64,000 nucleotides of DNA, taken from assembly GCA_018822845.1 (NCBI GenBank), contig JAHJJD010000075.1, forward strand, positions 62,001-126,000. The letters run 5' to 3'. This stretch comes from Gammaproteobacteria bacterium. GTDB taxonomy: Bacteria; Pseudomonadota; Gammaproteobacteria; Thiotrichales; Thiotrichaceae. The notes below the pieces were generated by a model. That model did no database searches and was not told the origin of the DNA. It was given only the letters and a program-made list of their open reading frames with translations. Position numbers and translations under genes: made by a program. Shown here piece by piece: positions 50,026-50,998 of this stretch; position 1 is the stretch's first letter; the number at the start of each line of letters is the position of its first letter.

Positions 50026-50149
50026 TAGCTAATATTGATCGGCAAGGATGAAAGTTGTACGGCTAAATGCTTGTGAGTATTAGTTTTTGCTTATATACTT
50101 TGCCATGTTGCGAAAATAACACAATCGTGTAATCGAGGGGGCGGAGATA

Positions 50150-50998
50150 ATGATGATGAAAGCCATACCACAGTCCATGAAACGAACCACCACCAAAACC
50201 AAACAGGCCAGCAAACTTTCCGTTGGTCTGGACATCTTTGGCAACGCTATCCCGGAAGTGAAATCAGCGCTGGTGGAAGGCACCGGCAAGGCCCTGCGCA
50301 TCGTGCGGCGGCAGGATGTGATCGTGAAGCCAAGCCGCAAAAAAGCGGTGGCGAAAGCCAGGGTAGTTACCAGGAAAACCGCACTGGTTGCAGCCAGCCC
50401 GACCTTGCTGGGTCGCCTGATCCCATGGATCAAGCCGGTGGAGCAGCCGCATAAAAAGCCTGTAGCGAAAGTTGCCCCTGTACAGCGCAAGCACGACACA
50501 CAGGCGCACCCCGATGGTATCGGCGAGCGGCTGGAATACGCTTTCCGCCGCCTGCACCAGGAATTCAACGAGCGCGAGCAGCAACTTGAAGCCAAAATGC
50601 AGGAGCTGAAACAGCAGCACCAGCACACCCTGGCGGGCAAGACCAAAAGTCGTGCCTGGCTGGCACCCGTGGCGCTGGCGGCGGTTGGCGTGGTGGGTTA
50701 CATGATGTACGTCATGACCAGCATGCAGACTTCCATGACTGCCATGTCCGGCAATATCAACACCATGAACGGCCACATGGGCGTGATGGCGGGCGATACC
50801 CAGGTGATGTCGCAAAACATCCAGACCATGAACCAGTCCATGTACTACATGAACAATAATGTGGCCTACATGAGCGGCAATGTGGCGCAGATGAACCAGA
50901 AAGTCGGCACCCTTGCCCAGGCTGCCCAGCCAATGGGCGAAGCAGCTTCGGCGATTAGCCCCTTTACCAAAATGTTCAAGTCATTCATGCCGTTTTGA
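50150..50998 (+). CDS. Membrane-anchored protein with methionine-heptad coiled-coil tail
   Basis: 282 residues (start could be any of three consecutive ATGs; 50153 or 50156 are better spaced from ggag). Residues 1-115 are basic with A/K/V-rich stretches. A coiled coil (about 125-160, RRLHQEFNEREQQLEAKMQE) is followed by one membrane helix (about 168-188) and a Met/Asn/Gln-rich tail. In the tail every seventh residue from 192 to 248 is Met (nine in a row), and the position four after each is I, V, M or T, i.e. a d/a coiled-coil core. No family recognised. The tail presumably oligomerises on the far side of the membrane. Confidence 0.75.
   Translation: MMMKAIPQSMKRTTTKTKQASKLSVGLDIFGNAIPEVKSALVEGTGKALRIVRRQDVIVKPSRKKAVAKARVVTRKTALVAASPTLLGRLIPWIKPVEQPHKKPVAKVAPVQRKHDTQAHPDGIGERLEYAFRRLHQEFNEREQQLEAKMQELKQQHQHTLAGKTKSRAWLAPVALAAVGVVGYMMYVMTSMQTSMTAMSGNINTMNGHMGVMAGDTQVMSQNIQTMNQSMYYMNNNVAYMSGNVAQMNQKVGTLAQAAQPMGEAASAISPFTKMFKSFMPF

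Follow-up and report, generated by a model that had tools for sequence, protein, structure and literature searches.

A gene on the forward strand of the 64,000-nt stretch of DNA analyzed here (the window) encodes a membrane protein in which methionine occupies position d of ten consecutive heptads (residues 185, 192, 199, 206, 213, 220, 227, 234, 241 and 248 in the translation of 50150-50998). Codon comparisons indicate that methionine is selected at d in the orthologue group of this protein: across ten d layers in a row, selection retains Met rather than Leu despite saturating synonymous divergence. The usual residues of coiled-coil cores are Leu, Ile or Val, and the protein is a natural test case for the role of methionine in such a core. 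Targeted literature searches found no description of methionine-core coiled coils.

Architecture of the methionine-heptad protein

A sequence-only reading of the window had noted methionine at every seventh residue from 192 to 248, with I, V, M or T at the partner positions. The translation agrees exactly, and with Met185, where the membrane helix ends, the run grows from nine heptads to ten; the residues at position a (M196, I203, M210, T217, I224, M231, V238, V245 and V252) match as well. Position 255 is Leu, while Met262 is again in phase with the d stripe. When the 78-residue region was shuffled 100,000 times, no run of nine or more and two runs of eight were obtained. No second methionine run of at least four heptads was found in the window's open frames of at least 60 codons. 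A relative (L044:1441-2136 / L090:6326-7021) contains 18 consecutive methionine heptads and a second-phase methionine stripe of 12 heptads.

Coordinates of the gene and its parts are collected in Table 1. The top hydrophobic 19-mer of the protein begins at residue 171. Alignment of the orthologues revealed invariant residues in the juxtamembrane helix (F132, L135, H136, E138, F139, R142 and E143) and nearly invariant final residues in the C-terminal motif SPFTKMFKSFMPF. Longer paralogues at L022:538-1707 and L240:6866-7936 appear to carry several copies of the cytosolic juxtamembrane module (F..L....n.R[DE]), of which the window protein has one. An antisense open reading frame with histidine heptads (50264-50815, minus strand) is an artefact that mirrors the methionine stripe, because ATG reads as the His codon CAT on the opposite strand.

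Table 1. Location of the methionine-heptad gene, its upstream signals and the parts of its predicted product
Feature	Position	Strand	Description and basis
Promoter-like site TTGTGA-17-TATACT	50071..50099	+	5′ of the gene; match to consensus only
GGAG	50143..50146	+	Upstream of the gene; possible starts are ATG 50150, 50153 or 50156
Whole gene	50150..50998	+	Encodes 282 aa, a membrane protein with one pass and Met heptads; ORF and translation, orthologues full-length in most same-genus genomes
Residues 1-120, basic N-terminal region	50150..50509	+	Poorly conserved (56% mean pairwise identity in genus), predicted cytosolic; low-confidence model
Residues 124-160, conserved juxtamembrane helix LEYAFRRLHQEFNEREQQLE	50519..50629	+	Alignment; helix in models
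Residues 171-189, transmembrane helix	50660..50716	+	Basic residues N-terminal to it (N-in, C-out); hydropathy, helix pLDDT about 90
Residues 185-254, ten heptads	50702..50911	+	Met at every d, a = M/I/T/V; translation, orthologue alignment, codon comparison
Residues 255-269, Ala-rich rod end	50912..50956	+	Conserved P261, M262, G263; orthologue alignment
Residues 270-282, C-terminal motif SPFTKMFKSFMPF	50957..50995	+	Hallmark common to the wider family: P...F/M...xP[F/W]

The coiled-coil periodicity proposed by the sequence-only reading was found in the window protein. Its hydrophobicity shows a spectral peak at 3.5 residues and almost none at 3.6, which is the seven-residue period expected of a parallel left-handed coiled coil, and the same holds over 126 residues (18 heptads) of a relative. 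Together with insertions and deletions in whole-heptad units, this period fits a supercoiled helix. The period also argues against a straight, surface-lying amphipathic helix, which was rejected on this ground. The region after the membrane segment is probably a supercoiled helix with a methionine-held d layer, and the C terminus is probably periplasmic. Single-chain AlphaFold2 models consist of one long helix, confident to and through the membrane segment, with a methionine region that is helical at low confidence (mean pLDDT 54 and 67). The non-core positions are rich in S, N, T, G and Q, a composition seldom seen in stable helices. No significant match was found among solved structures, either by sequence or by fold.

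Beta-branched residues at a combined with unbranched residues at d favour parallel dimers, as in GCN4 variants. The window protein shares this pattern and the 3.5-residue period with the leucine-zipper parallel coiled coils of GCN4 and tropomyosin, but it has Met instead of Leu at every d and few charged residues at e and g, and it is membrane-anchored and probably periplasmic. Methionine has been rated a stabilizing core residue (PMC3924298), so an all-methionine core need not be weak.

Constancy of methionine among orthologues

Full-length orthologues sharing 63-69% identity were found in 13 of 15 genomes of the same genus, and more divergent ones in the taxonomic family. Among 14 genus sequences, including that of the window, the ten d methionine codons differed in none of 910 pairwise comparisons, while 54% of the fourfold-degenerate sites differed. 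Mean identity within the genus was highest at d (1.00), followed by e (0.92), g (0.90), b (0.86), a (0.83), f (0.68) and c (0.65). A change from ATG to a Leu or Ile codon needs one base only, yet the in-phase methionines were never changed in the genus sequences. Those lying off the stripe (186, 189, 210, 231 and 275) are replaced by Leu, Ile or Ala in orthologues; in the C-terminal half, drift affected five of seven non-d methionines versus 0 of 11 in-phase ones (P=0.002). Across 17 alignable orthologues, a single Leu was present among 146 residues at the nine d positions named in the sequence-only reading. Length changes in the rod comprise whole heptads, with seven residues added in L003 and L009 and 7, 14 or 21 residues missing in L015-L017.

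The comparison of homologues suggested by the sequence-only reading therefore gave, within this orthologue clade, the predicted outcome of conserved d methionines and drifting other positions. The same reading held that Leu or Ile at d would mark methionine as incidental. Such residues are absent from the orthologues apart from the Leu mentioned above, but they do occur in distant paralogues, in which Ile, Leu or Val make up about 30% of the d residues; within the genus, a second paralogue has orthologues whose d methionines are exchanged with Ile and Leu. Methionine is thus selected in the orthologues but not required by the family fold, which accepts other hydrophobic residues, and its strictness is a property of the orthologue group of the window protein.

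A DNA-level origin of the pattern was also considered. Outside the ATG codons the 21-nt units of the methionine run are 38% identical, and Tandem Repeats Finder (TRF) detected no 21-nt tandem array. What maintains the pattern is therefore the protein, not slippage of a repeat, and a DNA tandem repeat was rejected as its source on these grounds. As a control, nine ATGs at heptad spacing were searched for across 85,000 species, with all figures referring to the matches listed. Among these, nearly all readable matches outside the methionine-heptad family were tandemly repeated DNA or reading frames interrupted by stop codons, an outcome that would suit a chance or low-complexity artefact of slippage or composition. 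Only two of the 80 loci read from the matches listed had clearly diverged units (about 50% identity), namely those of Ca. Parabeggiatoa and of a Chromatiaceae genome. For the window gene such an artefact is practically negligible: in addition to the diverged units and the missing array, its methionine codons show zero changes despite saturated synonymous divergence, by which this explanation is already refuted.

The wider family and its gene neighbourhoods

A family profile (A2) was built from 19 divergent methionine-heptad proteins. Of the 369 genomes sampled from the class, 81 (about a fifth) have members. Members were also detected in every genome of the same genus and, within a second class belonging to this phylum, in many of the genomes sampled from several families; because the seeds were chosen for their methionine heptads, compositional likeness may inflate some of the distant relationships. 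The C-terminal motif and the operon context shared by members were not among the seed selection criteria. Members are built from one membrane helix, a methionine-biased rod of heptads with essentially no cysteine, and the motif P...F/M...P[F/W] at the C terminus. The window protein has both an N-in membrane helix followed by methionine-biased heptads and the C-terminal motif. Among 134 non-redundant members, the part of the chain beyond the membrane helix contains 14.5% Met and 0.006% Cys, the d layer is 59% Met and 30% Ile/Leu/Val, and position a is 37% Met and 44% Ile/Val/Leu. The K/R bias is 3.1 on the N-terminal side of the membrane helix and 1.0 on its C-terminal side, and an xP[FWLMIP] motif, most often of the RPM.F.N.FMPW type, lies within the last 25 residues of 98 of the 134 proteins.

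No Pfam or NCBIfam model reached its cut-off with the methionine-heptad proteins, in agreement with the earlier description of a membrane-anchored protein of a family without a name, and PADLOC and PHROGs gave only sub-threshold or weak coiled-coil matches. The family, present in two classes of the phylum, is thus one that lacks a model in both collections. The top weak profile matches were DUF948 (PF06103) and DUF1664 (PF07889), coiled-coil families whose function is not known and in which a membrane helix is likewise followed by heptads. The window protein scored 20.8 bits against DUF948 (curated cut-off 37.2 bits), and its methionine core, cytosolic module and C-terminal motif fall outside both models. 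For several relatives the best weak NCBIfam match was IcmG/DotF of type IVB secretion (NF038218), an N-in single-pass protein with a coiled coil. The window protein scored 14.1 bits and the tested relatives no more than 29, against a cut-off of 200, and no Dot/Icm genes were noticed nearby.

No neighbours of the window gene were consistently conserved across the genus: a gene encoding 406-412 aa lies upstream in some genomes, and a YdjM-like gene lies downstream in others. This copy stands alone, outside a cluster that surrounds a paralogue in the same genome (L237, G000:C68:1-7584) in the order RND pump, ParA ATPase, TPR protein, methionine-heptad protein, dynamin-like GTPase and ApbE lipoprotein. 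The paralogue is flanked by the TPR membrane protein and by the one protein in this genome whose Dynamin_N match is near-complete. The cluster was also observed at L238, L239, L242, L245, L248, L314, L325, L339, L341 and L344, other families included.

In 40 further loci, chosen before their neighbours were inspected, a ParA, dynamin or RND gene was located within four genes of the methionine-heptad gene in 17 cases. A dynamin-like gene directly adjoined it in 11 of the 40, and all 12 nearby dynamin genes were on the same strand (neighbours were labelled by BLAST to seed proteins, of which Pfam confirmed representative ones only). Cluster membership is common in the family, though not universal. 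There are about eleven RND genes in the window's genome, which places these neighbourhood links well above chance. The second class has ParA/methionine-heptad pairs as well as operons consisting of HlyD, RND and two methionine-heptad genes; at L279, L287, L288, L289 and L290 of this class, a HlyD adaptor and an RND pump are accompanied by one or two methionine-heptad proteins per operon. Paired methionine-heptad genes directly following a gene for a dCache sensor-domain protein were seen at L241:4887-7095, L247 and L347.

The GTPase adjacent to the paralogue shows weak matches to LeoA/LeoBC of the bacterial dynamin-like LeoABC system. The arrangement differs from that of LeoABC in the presence of the RND pump, ParA, TPR protein, methionine-heptad protein and ApbE. 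No named system corresponding to the cluster was found, and targeted literature searches returned no description of a ParA/dynamin/RND cluster. An operon combining an RND pump, a ParA ATPase and a dynamin-like GTPase constitutes a concrete, testable system.

A proposed envelope scaffold and other readings of the methionine core

We propose, at somewhat better than even probability, that the protein is an inner-membrane, single-pass, homo-oligomeric coiled-coil scaffold of the cell envelope. The cytosolic juxtamembrane helix and the membrane helix would lead into a rod that spans residues 185 to about 260, which amounts to about ten heptads and roughly 115 Å; in this rod d is methionine, and a is mostly a beta-branched residue or methionine. 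We infer from the charge bias around the membrane helix that this rod is periplasmic. The helices would self-associate, most likely as a parallel dimer because a is beta-branched and d unbranched, and a short conserved hydrophobic motif at the rod tip, PFTKMFKSFMPF, may dock on an envelope partner. The rod could thereby act as a tether that organizes machinery of the envelope, for example RND pumps. The window copy lies outside the pump/GTPase cluster, so a functional link of this gene to pumps or GTPase is suggested by paralogy only. The scaffold is favoured by the constancy of the d methionine codons, heptad-sized indels, 3.5-residue period, K/R bias, near-zero cysteine content, C-terminal motif and paralogue operons; the low pLDDT of the methionine region, the S/N/T/G/Q-rich non-core positions, the solitary window gene and the methionine-seeded profile count against it.

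Methionine also offers a flexible hydrophobic surface, and with small, polar residues at the non-core positions the region might be an amphipathic helix or an open groove of methionine bristles, either resting on the membrane or accommodating hydrophobic clients, similar to the M domain of SRP54/Ffh. This is improbable, since an exact 3.5-residue period maintained over 10-18 heptads would rotate the stripe of a straight 3.6-residue helix by about 20 degrees per heptad, through a full turn of the face, and the window protein has no SRP match in Pfam. That the conserved d residue of the clade is methionine, and not merely hydrophobic, would suit an oxidation sensor in which sulfoxide formation at d dissociates the periplasmic coiled coil and MsrP repairs it. 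Oxidation of core methionines disrupts a model coiled coil, according to the passage of PMC9936496 that cites Garcia-Echeverria 1996. The window's own genome has msrP, and the gene co-occurs weakly with the family (49 of 81 family-bearing versus 111 of 288 other genomes; odds ratio 2.4, P=0.0006, kinship ignored). However, MsrP is missing from 32 of the 81 family-bearing genomes, the paralogues replace d methionine in the proportion given above, and no genes related to oxidants were noticed near the orthologues; we regard such a switch as unlikely. Its extension, a genus-wide, strictly conserved all-methionine periplasmic zipper that is reversibly oxidized and through which the family would link the redox state of the envelope to RND pumps and to a membrane machine of the ParA/dynamin kind, is more doubtful still.

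The sequence-only reading had also considered a metal-binding core. A methionine-rich, cysteine-free and probably periplasmic rod could in principle bind Cu(I) or Ag(I) in the manner of SilE, through MXXM/MXXXM sites made up of methionines at a and d, and MXXM pairs do exist in the window protein (186/189, 189/192, 196/199, 210/213 and 231/234). Only 196/199 is invariant, whereas orthologues have Leu or Ile in place of the methionines at 186, 189, 210 and 231; about half of the a positions are Ile, Val or Thr, cysteine is absent as a possible ligand, and no copper genes were noticed beside the window gene. The pairs are not kept, which makes metal binding very improbable, and this part of the earlier reading was not supported. 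While composition, location and MXXM spacing recall SilE-type periplasmic binders, the conserved unit of the window protein is one methionine per seven residues. The all-methionine core is most likely a specific, adaptable self-pairing surface.
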